DNA of 64,000 nucleotides, taken from Sipunculus nudus. Lineage: Eukaryota; Annelida; Sipuncula; Golfingiida; Sipunculidae. Of the stretch, positions 13,687 through 60,895 are shown piece by piece. The notes beneath the pieces were generated by a model, which was given only the letters and a program-made list of their open reading frames with translations, did no database searches and was not told where the DNA came from. The stretch covers positions 1,557,501 through 1,621,500 of the forward strand of contig CM049319.1 of NCBI GenBank assembly GCA_026874595.1, in the 5' to 3' direction. Position 1 is the first letter of the stretch; every line of letters begins with the position of its first letter. The translations under genes were made by a program, and so were the position numbers.

Positions 13687-13945
13687 TGGCAAAGAAAGCA
13701 CAAAGGATTTGAAATCACAAAAGAAACCACCCTAGATGGGGAAGAAACATTTTTATTCGATAAACTTGATAAAGAAAATAATTCAGGGCTTATAATCTTA
13801 AGTGTTAGTGTCAATTTTATATAAAAATGTTCAACCCGCATTGATTCGTGCATACACGTATTAGCACTCGACACATATTTGTCACACTGTTAATTTGAAA
13901 TACATACTTGATTTTAATAACATCTGTATCATGTGTTACTTTCAG
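13687..13945 (+). other. Satellite edge to splice acceptor of the glycosyltransferase gene
   Basis: Only about 260 bp separate the last satellite unit from the acceptor (TTACTTTCAG, ending 13945). No TATA box or plausible first exon with a donor is visible in this gap, so the first exon should lie further left, beyond or within the satellite. That would put the array in the 5' intron. Alternatively, transcription starts in this gap and the acceptor is unused. Confidence 0.4.
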
Positions 13946-15028
13946 ATGATGGAGCAAAAGTACCCAGACGGTCTTAAAGATAGTGCTCTCTGTAACATGA
14001 ATCGGAAATTCGTGTCCATTAAATTCATGTTGTTTGTGTCTGCTATTATGTTTGTGACTGGAGTTACTGTTGGAATGTGGGAGACAATTTTCAGTTACCA
14101 AAATGAATTCTCAAGTCTACCTGAGTCATATACAAATCAAGAAAACAACACCGACAAAATATGGGAGAACGTCCCCGCTTGCAAAAATGATTTGACAGCA
14201 AGACTGAAGAATGATTCTTTACAAGGAGAACAAGTAGAATACAAAATCCCGAACGTAGTGCATTATCAGTGGTATTCAGATAAACCCCAGGTGTTTCCAT
14301 TCACGGCCTACCTGAGTGTGATGAGCGTGTTCCGCTTTCAGAAGCCTTGTAGGATATACTTCCACACCAACATGGAGCCGTATGGGAAATACTGGAGCAT
14401 GACCAAATGCCTTCCATCTTTTGAAGTAGTCAAGACAGAACCACCTAAACAGTTGTTTGGGACAAAAATTGCAAATAGGTTTGACACATCTTATTCAAAT
14501 GTTGGTCGCTTGATGGTGCTTCACCGTAATGGTGGTATATATCTAGACACAGATGTACTTATTCTAAAATCTCTGGACACGTTACGTGAACATGAGTTTG
14601 TTATTGGCTATCAAGATGACCGTAAGACCGTTTGCAGCGCTGTTTTAATGTCAACGCCGTCCAATCCTTTGTTGAAATTATGGATGGAGCATTTTATATT
14701 TGACTACAAACCAACCATCTGGGCTTACAATATGCAGGCTGTACCTTCCTCAATTCTGAAGCGATATCCTGAACTGGCGTATATAGTAGAAAAAGAATTC
14801 CACCGGCCAAGTTATGTCGAATTGGATAATATATATAAGGAAGAGAATTATGACTGGAGTAATAATTATGCACTGCACTTATGGAGCAACATCATGAAAC
14901 AATATAGATTTAGATATGATTCCATCACTCAAGATAACATAAACAACATAAAAAGCACAGTGGGACAGATAGCCAGGTATATACTTTACCGTAATTCATC
15001 GCTTATGGATTTATTTTATGAGTGTTGA
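13946..15028 (+). CDS. GT32/A4GALT-like type II membrane glycosyltransferase (coding exon)
   Basis: The 360-aa product is a probable Golgi glycosyltransferase of the DXD-containing GT32 type, related to alpha-1,4-galactosyl/GlcNAc-transferases, whose members are usually about 340-360 aa. Seen: a short cytoplasmic N-terminus, one hydrophobic segment (about 24-44), a stem with sequons at N67 and N89, the N-terminal fold motif IPNVVHYQWY (101-110), the nucleotide-sugar/metal motif GGIYLDTDV (197-204; DTD at 201-203), and the C-terminal motif YALHLWSN (309-315). The frame opens further upstream, but TTACTTTCAG ends at 13945 as a splice acceptor immediately before ATGATGGAG, and the paralogue at 22531 has an acceptor at the same point. 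I therefore start at 13946 and infer an upstream non-coding exon not visible here. The whole coding part is in one exon. Donor and acceptor substrates cannot be told from sequence. Confidence 0.85.
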   Translation: MMEQKYPDGLKDSALCNMNRKFVSIKFMLFVSAIMFVTGVTVGMWETIFSYQNEFSSLPESYTNQENNTDKIWENVPACKNDLTARLKNDSLQGEQVEYKIPNVVHYQWYSDKPQVFPFTAYLSVMSVFRFQKPCRIYFHTNMEPYGKYWSMTKCLPSFEVVKTEPPKQLFGTKIANRFDTSYSNVGRLMVLHRNGGIYLDTDVLILKSLDTLREHEFVIGYQDDRKTVCSAVLMSTPSNPLLKLWMEHFIFDYKPTIWAYNMQAVPSSILKRYPELAYIVEKEFHRPSYVELDNIYKEENYDWSNNYALHLWSNIMKQYRFRYDSITQDNINNIKSTVGQIARYILYRNSSLMDLFYEC

Positions 15029-21265: not shown

Positions 21266-22531
21266 TTAACAAGAATAAAATAAATCCATATCCGATGAAT
21301 GTCTATGTAGAATGTGTCTGGCAATTTGGCCGATCGTGCTGCTCTGGGTTTTATGTAGGATGTGTCTGGCAATTTGGCCGATCGTGCTGCTCTGGGTTTT
21401 ATGTAGGATGTGTCTGGCAATTTGGCCGATCGTGCTGCTCTGGGTTTTATGTAGGATGTGTCTGGCAATTTGGCCGATCGCCCTGCTCTGGGTTTTATGT
21501 AGGATGTGTCTGGCAATTTGGCCGATCGTGCTGCTCTGGGTTTTTTATGCTCTCACGGGAAAGCGAGTTATACTTGTCTTCCTTATTTCTGAAGGCGTTG
21601 TTCCAAAGGTGCAGCGCATAATTGTGACTCCAATCTAAACTGTGTTTCTTGTATATATCATCCAATTCATGGAAACTTGGACGGTGAACTTCTTGTTCTA
21701 CTATATACGCTAGTTCAGGATATCGCTTCAGAATTGCAGATGGTACAGCCAGCATATTATAACCCCAGCGGGTTGATTTATAATCAAATATGAAATGTTC
21801 CAACCATAATTTCAGGAAAGCGTTTTCAGGCGTTGACATTAAAAACGCACTGCAAACGGTCTTACGGTCATCTTGATAGCCTATAACAAACTCATGTTCA
21901 CGTAACGTGTCCAAGGATTTCAGAAGAAGTACATCTGTGTCTGAATATATACCACCATTACGGTGAAGCACCAACAAGCGACTAACTTTTGAATAGGATG
22001 TACGAAAAATATTTACAATTCTTCTCCCAAACAACTGTTTAGGTGGTTCTGTCTTGACTACTTCAAAAGATGGAAGGCATTTGGTCATGCCCAGTATTTT
22101 CCATGAGGCTCCAGGTTGGTGTGGAAGTATATCCTACAAGGCTTCTGAAAGCGGAACACGCTCATCACACTCAGGTAGGCCGTGAATGGAAACTCCTTGG
22201 GTTTATCTGAATACCACTGATAATGCACTACGTTCGGGATTCTGTACATTTTATTGTTGGTGTTGTTGTTTGACTTATTTGCTGTTTTATTTTTGCAAAC
22301 GAATATTCTGCCAGATTCTACCGATATTAATTTGTAGATATTTTGACGACTCGGTCAGACTTATTTATGGTTCAGATTGCAATCTAGAAATGTTGTCCAT
22401 ATTTCAAACATAACTCCGGACACAAACACAACACTGCACACAACCAGCAGGAATTTCAATGAAACTCTTTTCCGGTTTTTGTTAATGGCTAAACCAGCTG
22501 TAATTCCGATTGGGTACGTTTGGTCCATGAT
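21266..22531 (-). pseudogene. Broken paralogue of the GT32/A4GALT-like glycosyltransferase
   Basis: This is a second, convergent copy of the gene at 13946. The exon opens after a CTTCAG acceptor (22533-22532) with ATG at 22528; the start MDQTYPIG and the hydrophobic segment match the paralogue. The stem hits a TAA at about 22361. The frame resumes at YRIPNVVHYQWYSDKP (about 22236 downward), loses one base near 22094 (TACTGGGCATG against TACTGGAGCATG), and reopens as MTKCLPSFEVVKTEPP with the DTD motif intact (GGIYSDTDV) and ALHLWNN near the end. Two extra bases in an A-run near 21544 shift the frame again just before a 48-bp tandem repeat. After the repeat the ancestral C-terminus MDLFYSC and stop TAA (21268-21266) are still readable, matching MDLFYEC in the intact copy. 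At least three lesions make it a pseudogene unless these are assembly errors. Confidence 0.85.
21300..21545 (-). repeat. 48-bp coding-derived minisatellite in the glycosyltransferase pseudogene
   Basis: Five head-to-tail units of 48 bp (+ strand: GGGTTTTATGTAGGATGTGT then CTGGCAATTTGGCCGATCGT then GCTGCTCT). In the gene's frame on the minus strand each unit reads STIGQIARHILHKTQS, which is homologous to STVGQIARYILYRNSS, present once near residues 337-352 of the intact paralogue. The unit length of 16 codons keeps frame. Confidence 0.9.
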
Positions 22532-35270: not shown

Positions 35271-35440
35271 CAGTTAATGAATACTATAGTACATTTATAA
35301 TTTTGGTTCTAACAGAGAAATAGTAAAAATAACACAAATACAGAAAATATGGATATAAATTAACACACACCCTGACGTATATCAACATATGATTACGTAT
35401 GTAATTAGCCGTGACAATCCGACTCAGTAGGCAATCAGAT

Positions 35441-35828
35441 TGTAGGATTTTCCCCACAGATAATAGAAAACGACACATAATTTTAGGTTTAAATTACCAA
35501 ATGACCGAAAGATCTGTCCTTTTGAATTATACTGCCAGTCTGATAGTTATAAACGTGATAAACAGGGAGCTAGAAGGGTCGCGGCAGACTACTAAACTTC
35601 GCCTTATGTCGATTATCCTTTAGCCCCTTAACACGTCTAAATGACTAAACCTAGTGCTGACCAGACGTGGGCCTGTGTGGCCCACGTCTGCATCATTCAG
35701 CTGCACGCGGAAGAGTGAGGAGGACGGGACATTCCTGGCCGTAGGCCAGCCTACTTTACAATAGGGGTGGCATTAATGGGCGAGTCCAAATACTGATAGC
35801 TGACCGGTAGTAGGCCTCATATCTTACA
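35441..35828 (-). repeat. 3' LTR of the LARD element
   Basis: This is the 388-bp copy. It contains the strong dyad CAGACGTGGGCC...GGCCCACGTCTG (near 35663-35690). It differs from the 5' LTR by an additional TG inside that dyad loop and by two base changes. Confidence 0.93.
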
Positions 35829-35841
35829 CTCTTCCCCCCTT
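35829..35841 (-). promoter_or_regulatory. Polypurine tract of the LARD element
   Basis: AAGGGGGGAAGAG on the minus strand ends exactly at the 3' LTR boundary, as required for plus-strand priming. Confidence 0.8.
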
Positions 35842-36960
35842 ATTTGAAAAAAAAAAAAAACAAAGTTTTTTTTTTTTTTTGTTAAATAAAGAAGACATCT
35901 TGGCCATATACAGGCAAAAGCAATTTTGAACAGACGCACATTACAGCCTCAAGGTAAAAAAAACCTGGGGACAGATATTCCAGGAAAAACCATGAGCTTG
36001 TAAATAATTGTGCCTATAACAGAGCTGGCAGTATTTGTTTTATATAACTGCAATATCTTGATCTGTGCCCCATCGCACAATTTTGTAAATTGGTAAGTTT
36101 ATTCAAATAAACACATCAGTTAGTAATGGAATGATAACAACATGGAATAGCATTTCATGTATCAGTAAAACATTAATGTTTGCAAAATATTTTGCATAAT
36201 GTCCAAATTTGGCTGCACTGTGTCAGCATAGCACATAAGAGAGTCCTTCTCAGAAATTACTCAGCATTTAGTATTCAAAAATGTCTTTCATCATAACTAT
36301 GCACAAGCAGGCAAGTCCATAGGCAGCCGTGTTGTAACTTGTAGCTGTGCTGAACATAATGTTGGGTGCAGGAGGCAGAACATGTACGTCTTACTCCTGC
36401 AAAGAAATAAAACAACGCCGCAGTATCTATTCCACACAAATTATATCACAACATATAACAATAATGAACAACTCTGACTTAAAATTCAATGTGATTTGTT
36501 TTTGTTTTTTATAACTACCGCTTACAGCTTTTAGGTCTGAATAACTTTGACATGCCATACCGCTCTGGTTAATGTAACAATTATCATATACAGGTTGAAT
36601 GGAGAATACGGTCAGGTCATAACAATACATTACCAGGGCTTATATATGTACCTAAATGGATGCAAACTTGCATGAATAACAATTTAACTCAAAGTATAAT
36701 ACGATGTTCTCATAATTAATGTTTTAATTAATTAAGTTGTGCAAGTCATGTTATACTAAAAGGAAGAAACTAAATAGCCTTAAACCGTAAGCTGTAATAA
36801 AAGAATACTGTATCCGTTTGCAAGGAGACCAACAGAACAGTTGGTCAAATTATGATTGAAATATCACACTATTTATTATAAATATCACACTATTTATTCA
36901 ATCCTTTAATGCGAGAGAGTGAACTAGCTAATAACAAGCTAACAAATATATATTGGGTAC

Positions 36961-37258
36961 AATTCGTAAATTAACATATCCGTTTTTAATAGATTTAATT
37001 GTTTACATTTAATATTGATATCCAGTAATTTAAAAAGTATACTACTAGAAATATTAATGTGCTGTTCTTTTTAAATGCCCAATGTTGTTCAAATTACTAA
37101 ACTGTGTATAATTCCTAAATAAACATATCCGTTTTTAATAGATTTATTTGTTTACATTTAATATTGATATCCAGTATTTTTAAAATGTATACTACTAGAA
37201 ATATTAATGTGCTGTTTATTTTAAATGCACTATGTTGTTCAAATTACTAAACGGTGTT
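36961..37258. repeat. 149-bp tandem duplication inside the LARD element
   Basis: Two copies start at about 36962 and 37111. They share AACATATCCGTTTTTAATAG, TTTACATTTAATATTGATAT and ATACTACTAGAAATATTAAT, with moderate divergence. The duplication therefore appears older than the current insertion (LTRs about 99% identical). Confidence 0.85.
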
Positions 37259-39409
37259 GGCATCCCCAAATATTACAATATGTTTCCTGTTTCGTAAATG
37301 CCACCTTTAACACACTTGACAGTCACCAATCAGGCATACTTCTCAGCCAGATTGAACTAATCTGGAATTACTCGACTTATCAGTATTTCCTGACACTCGA
37401 AAGGTATACAAAGCTACTGCACCTGATAAGCGTTTTGACAGCTGACTGCTTAATAAACAGAGACATGACATAAGGCCAGCTGCTAAGTTGATATCAGATT
37501 TTATATATACAGGATTACATAGTGTGAATTGTGGAGCACTGATAAAAGAAGGGCGATTATGGGGGTTTGGGAGATCACAAAGGCTGGTGGCCGTTGCGTG
37601 TTACATCATCTGATACCAGTGTGTAGGCTCCACAAATATGCCTGAACTTGTGACTTGTATTATCTCACTGTGAATGCACATGACTGAGCATGTGATAGAT
37701 TATTTCAATAAAGCTATTTACCTACTTTAGAAATACCTCTTTCAGTTGCCACAGTTGTTAACTATAGGCTTTATTGTTCTAGGCAAAACAGAAATATATT
37801 AAAACTGTATCTCACAGAGAACTAGTTACGTTAATTTAATATATATTATTCAGAGGGGAACGCCTATGTCTGGTTTGTTATTTAGTAATATTTACCACTA
37901 AAGAGTTTTCATTAAAAGTTTAGAGAATTGACTTTAACCACACAAAAATACCCATTACAACTCAAATCTAAAAGATTACTGCCCTTGGCCATTAAACGAC
38001 AAATTCTGCACCTGCACTTAGTATCAAATTATAGGTTATCCACTTGAGCCTTAGAGTTGTACATTTTTTATTTATTGGTATTTGTAAAATTTTTTTTTTC
38101 TATTTTTATTATTATTTATCAATATTTCATAGACTCAAACTACAAGATTAGTATAACTACTACTTTCACAGGTTGATGTTATGGAATTTTGGTGCTTGCT
38201 TTTAATCTGTTGAGAAAATTCATTTAAAAATGAGAAACTACTGGTTTTATTTTTCGTACATCAAATTGTAATTGTTAAATAAATTATGATCTTAAGCATC
38301 TAAATAACTATGAAATGTACCTTATTAAATTTTTATTTTATAGTATATTCTTTAACAGGCCTTTCCCCTTTGGGTTAAGTGAATGAAATTTTGTCTGCTT
38401 GGCCCCGGAATATGGGAGCAAACTGATTATCAGATGAAACATGTCACTAATTGCTGCCCCGGCAAGTGAATGACAGAAAATTTCTAGACGTTCATATTTA
38501 TGACTTTTTAAAGGGTGTGCATAGTTTTTCAGAATGGACTGCACAAATACACTTATTGGTTTCCTTGGATTTTTTTTTTTTTAATGTTTACGTATTATTT
38601 TAAAGCTAAAGTGTTTTAATCTTTTAAAAGTTATAAATTGTAAGATCTTGTTCAGCCACAATATTAAACCCTTGAAACCAGCCTAATAGATCTCACAAAG
38701 ATATACAAAAATGAAGAATGATTTTATTATTTTTAGACTGTATTTTATGCTTACTTTAACATTTATTTATTTTAATGGTTGTTATATGGATTAATAATTG
38801 GACATATTGATATAACAATATTTTACTCCGTTTGTGTTTTTTTTTTTTTAAATTTTTTATATCAACTTTAAACTCAAGTCTACACTTAATTACTCTATCT
38901 ATACATATATATGTAGCACGTAATCAGAATAATTAATAAATGAACGATTGGCTGTCCCCTTTTTATCATACAATTATAAAGTTCTGCATAGCGAAAAAAA
39001 AAGGATTTATAGAGCCTTACAATATATATATACACACACATATCAACGCTTACTTGACCTAACAACCTGTAAACCTCATCTTTTACATAAACTTAATTAG
39101 CACACTGCTCCACCTCTATACAATGAGTTCATGCTGCCTTACCTGGCCCTTTACTATTAACAAATACACTCAAAGTAACATTTTAAACAGTTTCTACATT
39201 TCATGTACATCAAAACAATAGTGGCACATACCTGTGTCAATAAGTACAATACTTTATTACATTTTCTCACATTATAGGCCTACCTCCTGGCCAATCATTG
39301 ACACCACACTTGTGTCATTCTTTACACACTGGTTGCTCCAAGGCACAGTTTTTCATATTAACAATAATGACACTGCCAGTCCTAAAAGGGTGCGCGTAGT
39401 GAAAGGCTC

Positions 39410-39725
39410 AAACTATCGCGGCGGCTACTTATCTTTCGCCTTATGTCGACAAGTGTTTGAACCCTTTCAGCGCCAAGGTCATTTTTCAGGCCATTGAACT
39501 ACACCAGTACCCTATTTCCAGCAACTCAGGGCCATTTCTATACAGCCAGTCCAGTCCTCGTTTGAGCGCTATTGGAAAGCTTTCAAAGTATCGCGGCAGG
39601 CTACTACTATACCGGTTCGCCTTATGTCGACACATGTTTGAACCTTTCGAGCGCTGAGGTAATTTTTCATGCCATTGAACTACAGCAGTTCCCTATTTCC
39701 AGCCACATAGGGCCATTTCTCATGT
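39410..39725. repeat. Two 175-bp-spaced copies of an LTR motif in the element interior
   Basis: TCGCGGC...GGCTACT...TTCGCCTTATGTCGA occurs at 39416 and 39591. The same order of motifs (TCGCGGCAGACTACT, TTCGCCTTATGTCGA) is in both LTRs (35579, 40340). The shared flanks CATTGAACTAC and CCCTATTTCCAGC make the two interior copies clear repeats of each other. Confidence 0.75.
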
Positions 39726-40182
39726 CATTTACAGCAATTAAATATTTCTAGCCTCATTGCTAATCATGGTTATTGCCAATATAAGCGATCTTATAAGGTA
39801 CAGGCATGTCTCCGTTACTACTTTATAAATGTTCGTGTCGGTTAACAGCGGCCACGCTTACCTATGCTATGGCAATTCTCTTTAAAAGGTCACAGAGGCC
39901 AATTTCTCATAATATGTACATCAAATCTATTCAGCCAGCCTCTTAAGGCCTTTTTGATACTTACTATAGTATATGACATTTAACACAAACACAAAATTCA
40001 CATACCGTAGTATTTCCAGGAACCTGTAACTTCTGGATTGGGTGGTCTTCTTCATCTTCACTCTTCTTCATTTATGTACCTAACTACTTTATGTGTGGCA
40101 GTTCATTTTTAAAATTTTGAAGAACAAATATTGCCAAAAATGCAGGTTCGAATCACTGCTCGTAAATATTTTGGATTTACAA

Positions 40183-40200
40183 GCTGGCAACCGCTCGCCA
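40183..40200 (-). promoter_or_regulatory. Primer-binding site of the LARD element
   Basis: TGGCGAGCGGTTGCCAGC on the minus strand, one base from the 5' LTR. The leading TGG is complementary to a tRNA CCA end. The tRNA species cannot be assigned by eye. Confidence 0.75.
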
Positions 40201-40201
40201 A

Positions 40202-40587
40202 TGTAGGATTTTCCCCACAGATAATAGAAAACAACACATAATTTTAGGTTTAAATTACCAAATGACCGAAAGATCTGTCCATTTGAATTATACTGCCAGT
40301 CTGATAGTTATAAACGTGATAAACAGGGAGCTAGAAGGGTCGCGGCAGACTACTAAACTTCGCCTTATGTCGATTATCCTTTAGCCCCTTAACACGTCTA
40401 AATGACTAAACCTAGTGCTGACCAGACGTGGGCCTGTGGCCCACGTCTGCATCATTCAGCTGCACGCGGAAGAGTGAGGAGGACGGGACATTCCTGGCCG
40501 TAGGCCAGCCTACTTTACAATAGGGGTGGCATTAATGGGCGAGTCCAAATACTGATAGCTGACCGGTAGTAGGCCTCATATCTTACA
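40202..40587 (-). repeat. 5' LTR of the LARD element
   Basis: This is the 386-bp copy and the promoter-bearing LTR for minus-strand transcription. ACGTTTATAACTATC (minus strand) is a weak TATA candidate. Confidence 0.93.
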
Positions 40588-40591
40588 AGAT

Positions 40592-41215
40592 AATTGGGCT
40601 GGTAAGCCTATTCGAGTCGTGATATAAGTTATATCTATAGGAATGTATCGCAGTGGCCTTGCATCAGTGGTCTTGATCGGCCCATAATCTCAATTTTATG
40701 CTAAAAATAATGAATTTACACAATAGTATACATGTGAGCTCACAACCCAAACTGAAACACCGTCTCCATGGACACGGGTCATTTCCTGTATCGCTTGCAA
40801 GCTGCCTGCGTCCTGTAACCCGTGCCAGCCATGCACGTGTTCATGCGGACATACTGAATTCAACAAACACGCCAACGGGTTTACCAATGGGCTGATTTAA
40901 AACTGAAATTTTCTCGCTCATGTTTGGTATTATTAGAAAGAACACAAAAAATGCTAACGATTGGTCTTGTTTATGTTGATTGACAGTTTACCTGTTGGCC
41001 ATGAAGCTTTGTCAGGAATGACGAAAATATTTGCATCTTCCTCAGACATAGATGTAATGACACGCGGGCGCAAGTAATCTGGTCGTAATGCCAGAGGGTC
41101 GATATGACGCAAGTATTTAATCAATATATGTATGTATATATATAAGTGTATATAATTATATATATATATTACTATTTGATACAATTTTGAATATTAGTTC
41201 ATGTTTTAAATATTC

Positions 41216-41562: not shown

Positions 41563-43070
41563 CCCCCCCCCCCCCCCCCCCCCCTCTTTGCACTGAGGTC
41601 GCCAGAACTGACACGTAGGCCAGCCAGCCAGGTCCGGCCCGCCCTCGCTGACCGACCACCACCGGGGAATCCCCCAAGTAAACCCGGGAGCCTGAGCCTA
41701 GCAACCAGCCAGTAATGTCCGAGCGTCACCGGCCTACCCCTGGACTGCCGTGAGTCCTGCCCTGAGCCTTGTCCCTTTCGACCAGGTACCGTGTTCGTTC
41801 GATCGGAGCCTTTTCTGGAGCCTTTCCTGGTTCTTGTGCCATCATGCTTGAGCCTTGTCCCTGCTGGTCCTGACCGGACCCCCGGTTTTTACGTCTCGGA
41901 GCCTTGTCCCTGACCCTTTCGGGATCCCCTCAACTTTTATCCACCAAACGGCTGGCTCTTCAGGGCCAGGTTCCATACTGTCGGCAACGGGCTGGCCTAC
42001 TCTTCTATCGAAAAACAGTATGGGATCTCTTACGTGCCCATCCCCTTCTGGACACGGGACCGCCATTTTACGTCCTCATCCGATGGACGGCCCGTATTTT
42101 GCTTTTGCAGTCGGGCGCTGCAGAGCCCGGAGCCTTTCTACCCCTGCCCCACTTTTTCTAGTGGGGTGATGATATCCGTTTGCCACTGATTTTTTGCCAG
42201 TCGAGCCACATTTTGAGGTCTTTATAGAACTTCTCTTGCTTAACCTTTTCGACATAGCCTTTGCTCAACCTTAGAATGTGGTCTTTCACATATTCTATTT
42301 CTGCCTTCTCGTGAAGCACAGATACTCGGGTTCGAGGCGGGAGTCTCAAGGCCGTCCTTAAGGCTCTGTTTTGAAGCCGTTGAAGTGTCTTAATGTGGTG
42401 CTCTTTGGCTGAGATCAGGGCTATGCAGCCGTACATCATGACCGGTCTGATCCAGGCTTTATAAAGGTATACATATCAAACTTTGGGTTGACATGCCCCC
42501 TGTCCCTGCTTTTAGCACTCTTAAGCAGTTTAGTCTCGCTTTGACCCTCTGTTCGATATCCTTTATATGAGCCGCCCATGTGAGTCTCTTATCAACCGTC
42601 AGCCCCAGGAATTTTACCTGGTCTGTGAATTGAATTGGTTCTCCGGCCAATTTCAGTTCTGGCGCTTTGTCGGCCTTGCTGCCTTTCAGGTGCCTACCAA
42701 ACTTGCAAGCCTGCGTTTTTGTCGCATTGACTCTTACCCGCCATCTGGCGCACCACTCGGTCACTTCATCTAGACCTGCCTGTAGCCTGGGTGCTGCTCT
42801 CTTGCTATGTGTCCATAGCGCAGTATCATCCGCAAATTGGCTCGTCGCCCCCGTGCGGACTCCCCCTTTCTCGGACAGGCTAGGCATGTCGTTGACGTAT
42901 ATGACGTAGAGCAGCGGGCTGAGAGCTGAGCCCTGTGGTGTGCCAGCAGCGGGTTCGATCTCGTGCGACTTAGCGTCACCTACTCTGACCCATAGCTTCC
43001 TATCTCTTAGGAAGGATGAGAGAATCCTCACGATGCGAGCCGGCAGTTTAGCATGCGTTTAGCCTCAGTC
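41563..43070 (-). mobile_element. 5'-truncated Jockey/I-like LINE with GC-rich 3' region
   Basis: On the minus strand the reverse transcriptase begins mid-domain at about 43055 (KLPARIVRILSSFL). It continues GTPQGSALSPLLYVIYVNDM (42941-42882), QFADDTALW (catalytic DD), FLGLTVDKRLTWAAHI and SLICIPL, where the frame breaks near 42465. The next frame resumes AWIRPVMMYGCIALIS and RALRTALRLPP, and stops at about 42158. This is the order of a Jockey/I-type RT and thumb. The GC-rich 600 bp to a C22 tract (41563-41584) is probably its 3' UTR and contains GGGACAAGGCTC three times. Endonuclease and ORF1 are absent; the copy is dead. Confidence 0.8.
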
Positions 43071-59953: not shown

Positions 59954-60895
59954 TGTATCCACAAACAGAGTTTTGCGGATACTATGTTTTCAGCCCACCG
60001 CCGCCGCCGCGTAGGTGTCCGGAGAACTCCTCCTTAACCTCTTGGCGGAATTTTACGAAACCCGGGATTATGTTCGGGTCACATGTGAACTGCTGCGCCC
60101 CGATTTTGTTTTGACCTCTGACCTTTCCTCTGCGCTCTGCGTCTGTTTGTGCGTCTGTTCCCACACATAAACCCACATATCTCGGGAACCGTTTGACCAA
60201 TCAGGAAATTTTTTTTGCACAAATGTAGCCCTTGGAGAGCTTTATAACATACCCAAAAAATGGTGGCGCCACCTGCAACCATGTTTGCACAGTGTCCATC
60301 TGTTCGTCTGCCTTGGGTTAAAATCACTCATATCTCTGCAGTGGTTTGCCTAATTCCCCTGAAATTTGGCATGTATATACATCCTGGATAGCTTTTCTGA
60401 TTTTATGACAGGTGGCGCCACCTACATTCACGTTTACGCTGCAGACATCCAAGCTCATATCTCGGGAACCGTTTGACCGATTTGGCCAAACTTTTGCATG
60501 TGTATAGATCTCACATAGCTCTTTATCATACGCAAAACTGGTGGCGCCACCTGCAGCCATTTTTGCACAGCTCCCGTCTATTTGTCTGCCATGGGATAAA
60601 ATCACTCATATCTCGGCAGTGGTTTGACATATCTGCCTAAAATTTTGCAGGTTTATACATCCCTGACAGCTCTCTTGATTTTATGACAGGTGGCGCCACC
60701 TACATTTTAGTTTATGCAGCAGATATCCAAGCTCATATCTTGGGAACCGTTCGACCGATTGGGCCAAAGTTTTGCATGTGTATAGTTCTCACATAGCTCT
60801 TTATCATACGCAAAACTGGTGGCGCCACCTGCAACCATTTTTGCACAGGGTCCATCTGTTTGTCTTTCAAGGGCAAAAATCACTCATATACATGT
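59954..60895. repeat. Dyad-array repeat, copy 1 (278-bp tandem units)
   Basis: The head is GTATCCACAAACAGAGTTTTGCGGATAC (hairpin-forming; 59955-59982). It is followed by tandem sequence in which the dyad GGTGGCGCCACC recurs at 60262, 60411, 60540, 60689 and 60818. The spacing alternates 149 and 129 bp, so the true unit is 278 bp with two related halves. Phrases such as ATATCTCGGGAACCGTTTGA and TTTGCATGTGTATAG recur in each unit. Confidence 0.9.

Follow-up and report, generated by a model that had tools for sequence, protein, structure and literature searches.

A recently active, multi-copy family of coding-free LTR retrotransposons with a repeated motif common to LTR and leader

The 64,000-nt stretch of Sipunculus nudus contig CM049319.1 analysed here (positions 1,557,501 to 1,621,500 of the forward strand; the window) carries on its minus strand a long terminal repeat (LTR) retrotransposon of 5,147 nt with a non-coding interior. 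This element is a member of a recently active, coding-free, multi-copy family and not the product of a duplication confined to one locus. Very probably the family is a non-autonomous one resembling the large retrotransposon derivatives (LARDs) and is copied in trans, as a non-coding element present in multiple copies with different target duplications must be moved by proteins supplied from elsewhere. Elements of this kind are already known, animals included; the new feature is a motif common to the LTRs and the leader.

The element is flanked by the 4-bp target site duplication (TSD) AGAT (35437–35440 and 40588–40591) and bounded by a 3' LTR of 388 nt (35441–35828) and a 5' LTR of 386 nt (40202–40587), both beginning with TGTAAG and ending with CCTACA on the minus strand. 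The 4,373-nt interior (35829–40201) contains a polypurine tract (PPT), AAGGGGGGAAGAG, adjoining the 3' LTR (35829–35841) and identical in 10/10 copies compared, and a TGG-type candidate primer binding site (PBS), TGGCGAGC, one base inside the 5' LTR (40193–40200). The two LTRs are separated by a single transition, a single transversion and an indel of 2 nt, which corresponds to 98.97% identity with the gap included and a Kimura two-parameter (K2P) distance of 0.0052. With an assumed rate of 1–3 × 10^-9 substitutions per site per year, the window copy would be about 0.9–2.6 million years old.

A six-frame Pfam scan of the interior, with stops read as X, gave no family at E≤1 in any of the six frames. 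The identical scan of the adjacent 4.2 kb, used as positive control, returned RVT_1 at 1.5e-15, so that a fragment of a reverse transcriptase is within reach of the method. Stop-free runs in the interior span at most 91 codons; the mean of the longest run in dinucleotide shuffles was 96.6, and 114 of 200 shuffles contained a run at least as long. Indels shorter than 60 nt between the other copies and the window copy left remainders of 1, 2 and 0 on division of their length by three in 118, 56 and 20 cases, respectively, counts that are pooled over copies and so not independent. The interior of the window copy is non-coding, and the other complete copies, 96–99% identical to it where aligned, are presumably non-coding as well.

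The LTR was used to search the window's own assembly (1.43 Gb, 153 contigs), and the best 40 of 879 first-look candidates were scored (93–100% identity). All 40 places, two of which are the window's own, were inspected; they comprise 14 complete copies (window included), six partial or cut-off copies and nine solo-like LTRs, defined by the lack of an interior within about 5 kb. Of the 14 complete copies, 13 stand between exact 4-bp duplications, and no two of these 13 duplications are alike (on the element strand ATCT, ATAG, CCCT, CAAT, GGCC, GCGC, ACAT, CTTC, TACG, ACCA, CCTT, ATAT and AGCC). Two complete copies, on contigs C8 and C12, are interrupted by nested insertions, the LTR pairs lying 11.9 and 18.6 kb apart, respectively, with other sequences nested inside. 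The ten LTR pairs measured have K2P distances from 0 to 0.0105, and just one of them, at C15:55.59 Mb, is a pair without any difference; a partial, older copy at C17:10.1 Mb is 93.5% identical to the window element. Five of 12 copies have a variant common to both their LTRs and absent from all other copies of the set, the pattern to be expected where both LTRs are copied from a single template.

The preliminary description of this DNA had proposed a complete minus-strand element, recently inserted and without any gag-pol trace, and had named degenerate pol motifs or a segmental duplication specific to the locus as the findings that would speak against it. Its anatomy, the recent insertion and the empty interior all hold. 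The motif common to LTR and interior, a duplicated segment of the leader and a 150-nt tandem duplication in the interior had escaped that description. The profile search of the interior gave no trace of pol, and a single-locus duplication disagrees with 14 complete copies, 13 private duplications and an interior found in 40 scored loci.

The candidate primer site stands one base from the LTR in 10/10 copies compared, within a 24-nt stretch that is identical in nine of them. The junction of LTR end and PBS, CCTACANTGGCGAGC, has 80 matches in the genome and its reversed control four, which indicates that the two together genuinely characterise a family. In the mechanism that we favour, RNA polymerase II would transcribe the element from LTR to LTR, a tRNA would prime reverse transcription at TGGCGAGC, and the reverse transcriptase and integrase of an autonomous LTR element would be responsible for its copying and insertion. 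The motif repeated in LTR and leader would act as an RNA signal (for packaging, dimerisation or export) through which a foreign Gag-Pol or the host could recognise the transcript. The partner would most likely be of the Ty3/Gypsy type; this preference rests on the 4-bp duplication and on animal terminal-repeat retrotransposons in miniature (TRIMs) that have 4-bp duplications and whose PBS region matches Gypsy elements only (PMC10886601).

Several observations weigh against this account. The autonomous partner was not found in a shallow search, in which coding matches near places of the family occurred only on contigs C3, C12 and C16 among the matches listed. The copy at C9:78.58 Mb, the sole exception among the 14 complete copies, has no matching duplication. 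Folding of the motif is only modestly better than that of shuffled sequences (z −0.63, −2.94 and −1.18), and some diverged relatives of the family may be coding. Finally, TGGCGAGC would be complementary to the eight 3'-terminal bases of animal tRNA-Arg-ACG, CCA among them; as this match covers only 8 nt, the site is a candidate, so that of the TGG-type primer site proposed earlier the position stands and the function is kept as a candidate one. The sequence GATTCGAACCTGC (40142–40154, minus strand), 38 nt past the PBS, presumably resembles the complement of a tRNA T-arm; ARAGORN predicted no tRNA in the whole window.

Each LTR holds one copy of the motif, TCGACATAAGGCGAA...AGTAGYCTGCCGCGA, and the leader holds two, always in a single orientation. 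The LTR copies (35579–35612 and 40340–40373) share one sequence, TCGACATAAGGCGAA...AGTAGTCTGCCGCGA, and the leader copies lie in a segment duplicated at an offset of 181 nt, int1 (39416–39449, with one T of the pattern missing) in the unit at 39408–39539 and int2 (39591–39630) in the unit at 39583–39720, all on the minus strand. As a gapped pattern, which does not cover the int1 form, the motif has 145 exact matches in the genome and its reversed control none; in viral contigs the pattern has no match. Among the 100 of the 145 matches that were listed (contigs C1 to part of C12), the commonest form is GTTCAGTAGCC (29/100). Since this form differs from that of the window subfamily, related families also carry the motif. 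Among 24 LTR relatives at 79–82% identity on contigs C1–C11, nine (two of them of the window subfamily) hold the exact motif and 15 do not, in a set found by similarity to an LTR query that itself held the motif, which favours such a result. Drift over 29 fixed letters would apparently leave fewer than nine of 24; the 15 relatives without the exact motif argue against strict conservation.

Two further places display the motif in other arrangements. The partial copy at C2:2.27 Mb is a deletion derivative with a leader motif joined to LTR sequence at the motif, and this suggests recombination between motif copies. On contig C9 (32313779–32314524 and 32319397–32319612) leader-type motifs recur every 176–177 nt, once at double that distance, which looks like an expansion of the leader repeat into a small array.

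Whether the motif acts as RNA or as DNA was judged from its arms. Fourteen flanked variants were selected for diversity. The LTR group had 11 rows and the interior group 12; the constancy of the core among them is not evidence, because the search pattern itself had prescribed that core. In the LTR group 92.4% of cells are paired, compared with 39–59% when the structure is slid along the alignment, and in the interior group 89.0% compared with 38–49%; both structures were drawn from the sequences tested, which favours them over the slid versions. One pair of the LTR group changes from G-C to C-G in 3/11 rows and another from G-C to A-U in one row. The covariation score of this group was reached by 1/500 shuffles; doubly changed pairs and pair types were not above shuffles (82/500 and 310/500 as high). 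The 12 rows of the interior group contain no double change, their covariation score is as in shuffles (235/500), and a one-column slide scores higher (0.117 vs 0.087). Arm duplexes gave p values of 0.005, 0.0005 and 0.07 with 18-nt arms, and of 0.016, 0.0005 and 0.0175 with 25-nt arms. Compared with 607 windows of the interior, the duplexes of the LTR and int1 copies exceed all, and that of int2 falls between the best 1% and 5%.

A serious rival is a motif working at the DNA level, as a promoter, an enhancer or an insulator binding site, and we regard it as a real possibility, somewhat short of even. It would accommodate the weak covariation in the LTR group, the absence of double changes in the interior group and the modest folding. 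It does not readily explain why arms whose sequences are unrelated between LTR and interior are complementary in both, nor the LTR covariation score that so few shuffles reached, nor the mostly low p values of the arm duplexes. On balance we read the motif as probably an RNA stem-loop, judging by these comparisons of sequence, and it is a candidate for the unrecognised RNA signal that the preliminary description had envisaged. Tentatively, the stem-loop could be an undescribed RNA mark, read by a foreign Gag-Pol or by an export or cleavage factor of the host, and multiplied in the leader because more copies win more packaging. The LTR/leader motif, being concrete and countable, is a candidate for the signal by which such elements are recognised in trans.

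In the search for the autonomous partner the best 150 of 4,779 integrase candidates and the best 150 of 7,299 RNaseH candidates were scored, and co-location was judged by eye among the matches listed for LTR, leader, interior, junction and motif. The genome does hold coding candidates, as several integrase matches among the best 150 lie in stop-free frames of 1,200–1,800 codons. The only integrase near a listed motif (C3:13334503) is that at C3:13327074; it was rejected as partner, the LTR there being 79% identical and ending with CCTACA, followed by CTTGAACT and no primer site. The copy on contig C12 contains a coding nested element with an integrase at C12:5148522. Because of its terminal repeats of about 1.27 kb and the different site that follows them, this element is not likely to be the partner. 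On contig C16 an RNaseH match (C16:6035036) in a 729-codon frame lies 2.75 kb upstream of an LTR-end and PBS junction (C16:6032282) on the same, minus strand; the arrangement (C16:6032282–6035347) is ambiguous and may represent a tandem with the autonomous partner or mere chance, for which a hand estimate gave about 0.13. A more diverged LTR as query (best 40 of 745 candidates) gave no co-location with the integrase or RNaseH matches listed.

A motif pair on contig C8 (50249140 and 50256249), 7.1 kb apart and thus of Gypsy-like length, was also considered; its 700 middle nt are repeat-like with a longest frame of 111 aa, and a coding element there is unsupported. These 700 nt (C8:50252200–50252899) are non-coding, repeat-like DNA, 66–72% alike to a second place, and both places lie beside LTRs of this kind. 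The five best integrase-core matches fell on the small contigs C106, C110, C118, C128 and C135 with 96.6–104.8 bits, compared with at most 74.3 for the others listed, and these contigs may be bacterial.

The earlier proposal of a compatible autonomous partner thus stands in one part: movement in trans is supported by complete, non-coding, multiple copies, and the partner itself did not emerge from this shallow search. That it is a BEL/Pao or another LTR element instead of Ty3/Gypsy is possible, though we think it rather unlikely. The failure to find it among the integrase, RNaseH and diverged-LTR matches scored would fit such a partner, whereas the 4-bp duplications of 13/14 copies do not, and neither do the Helenus TRIMs, animal elements with 4-bp duplications whose PBS region matches Gypsy elements only (PMC10886601).

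Another reading would make the element a relative of the retrozymes: the motif, both in the LTRs and in the leader, would be a self-cleaving ribozyme that has gone unrecognised, and spread would proceed via processed or circular RNA. Plant retrozymes are non-autonomous LTR elements with a hammerhead ribozyme in each LTR, and the window family resembles them in that each LTR has, in a constant position, one possible RNA motif, and in its coding-free interior, candidate PBS, PPT and 4-bp duplications. Arms that vary and are often complementary, set around a constant core, would also suit a ribozyme. Nevertheless, we consider this improbable: plant retrozymes are much smaller, the two additional internal motif copies would cut the genomic RNA, and Rfam gave no ribozyme, hammerhead included, and no tRNA at E≤5 in 35300–40800, where only two chance miRNA matches appeared. 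A ribozyme resembling twister-sister (PMC11620745) was likewise rejected, as comparison by eye showed no match to the motif core. That the window holds a recently dead autonomous element whose interior was replaced once at this locus, for which nothing speaks beyond the missing genes, is already contradicted by the interior at the 40 scored loci and the complete copies elsewhere with duplications of their own, and its probability is negligible.

The LARD-like, trans-copied family favoured here has relatives among known elements. In the broad sense LARDs are LTR elements of over about 4 kb without coding capacity; those of barley and related species, described by Kalendar et al. in 2004, reportedly have LTR ends, PBS, PPT, TSD and a conserved coding-free interior of several kb, depend on a partner, and possess LTRs of several kb. 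The window element shares with LARDs the TG...CA LTRs, the target duplication, the PPT and an interior of several kb without gag-pol that is kept among copies. It differs from those of barley in its LTRs of only 386–388 nt, and from LARDs in the repeated motif shared by interior and LTR.

LARDs are reported from plants (PMC10794571), and the preliminary description had called large retrotransposon derivatives best known from there. Taken to mean that they are in the main confined to plants, this is overstated, as the abstract of a study of the mosquito Culex quinquefasciatus counts 38 coding-free LTR families, cqUNK, of 1.6–14.6 kb (PMC3286476). According to that study, cqUNK elements have LTRs more than 98% identical, a PBS often of the Arg or Ser type, a PPT, mostly a TSD, internal tandem repeats and no known master copy. 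The coding-free interior, PBS (a candidate one here), PPT, TSD, near-identical LTRs and internal tandem repeats are common to them and the window element. Their TSDs, where given there, are mostly of 5 bp and not of 4 bp as in the window family; their repeats vary between families, and a motif shared by LTR and interior is not mentioned in the sections of the text consulted (PMC3286476).

Small coding-free LTR elements have also been published from bivalves. The non-autonomous biv-TRIM is like the window element in its uncertain PBS, solo LTRs and undetected autonomous partner, but it has repeats of 202–218 bp and an interior of 77–80 bp, as opposed to 386–388 nt and 4.37 kb here (PMC6934838). 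Others appear in PMC10886601, where the Helenus TRIMs agree with the window family in their animal 4-bp TSD, Gypsy-like PBS region and proposed mobilisation in trans. Helenus has a tRNA-derived LTR and is shorter than 1 kb (PMC10886601), whereas the window element has a presumably tRNA-like piece in its leader and no tRNA predicted by ARAGORN. TRIMs in general stay under about 1 kb in total length, compared with the 5,147 nt of the window element. Our searches, which covered open-licence literature, listed no multi-kilobase coding-free LTR family of a mollusc. If the host were a mollusc, as the preliminary description supposed, the family would show that an LTR element of several kilobases and without genes can last and stay mobile in a non-insect animal.

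The coding-free form seems to be old. A 1.5-kb piece of the mid-interior (36900–38400) recurs, in full or in part, at 78–100% identity in the best 40 of 159 candidates, and its fall to 78% identity elsewhere points to such an age, with the reservation that the diverged loci are mostly known by the match alone. The leader with the primer site (39740–40225) was found at 17 loci with at least 98% identity and at 23 loci with 88–93% (best 40 of 194 candidates). The mid-interior includes a 150-nt tandem duplication (36957–37257, minus strand; two copies, 92% alike) that is present or absent among copies. At the 23 loci below 94% identity the match starts at positions 196–207 of the query in 14, at base 1 in three and further in for six; two copies of 97–99% identity also start matching at position 204. 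The first unit of the repeat may be a later duplication or easily lost. In two relatives, C15:47301018–47306917 and C9:66139891–66144033, the distance from leader to interior is about 4.6 and 2.8 kb larger, respectively, than in the window, and the additional length could be a nested insertion or a coding stretch.

The LTR also contains a perfect 12-bp hairpin (35662–35690 in the 3' LTR, minus strand), with a folding z of −5.76 and none of 200 shuffles equally stable. It is identical in 19 of 25 matched LTR instances, and the other six show isolated changes or deletions, none of them compensated in the partner base, so that the hairpin gains no support from covariation. The 2-nt indel separating the window LTRs lies in its loop.

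Outside the element, the first 13,678 nt of the window form a 13.7-kb satellite array whose 47-bp unit, present about 292 times at 94% match, contains GGGAGGGAGGG; the array has a strong skew of G over C (0.33–0.39 in 2-kb steps), and G-quadruplexes could form on one strand. The DXD sugar-binding glycosyltransferase domain (PF04488) was detected in two open frames, 13865–15025 (plus strand), with an additional weak alpha-1,4-glycosyltransferase match, and 21498–22133 (minus strand), which possibly form a local gene cluster. A reverse transcriptase fragment at 42462–43058 on the minus strand (RVT_1, E 8e-17) probably belongs to a non-LTR element of the long interspersed nuclear element (LINE) type, and a tandem repeat of 278 bp occupies 60248–60889 in 2.3 copies.

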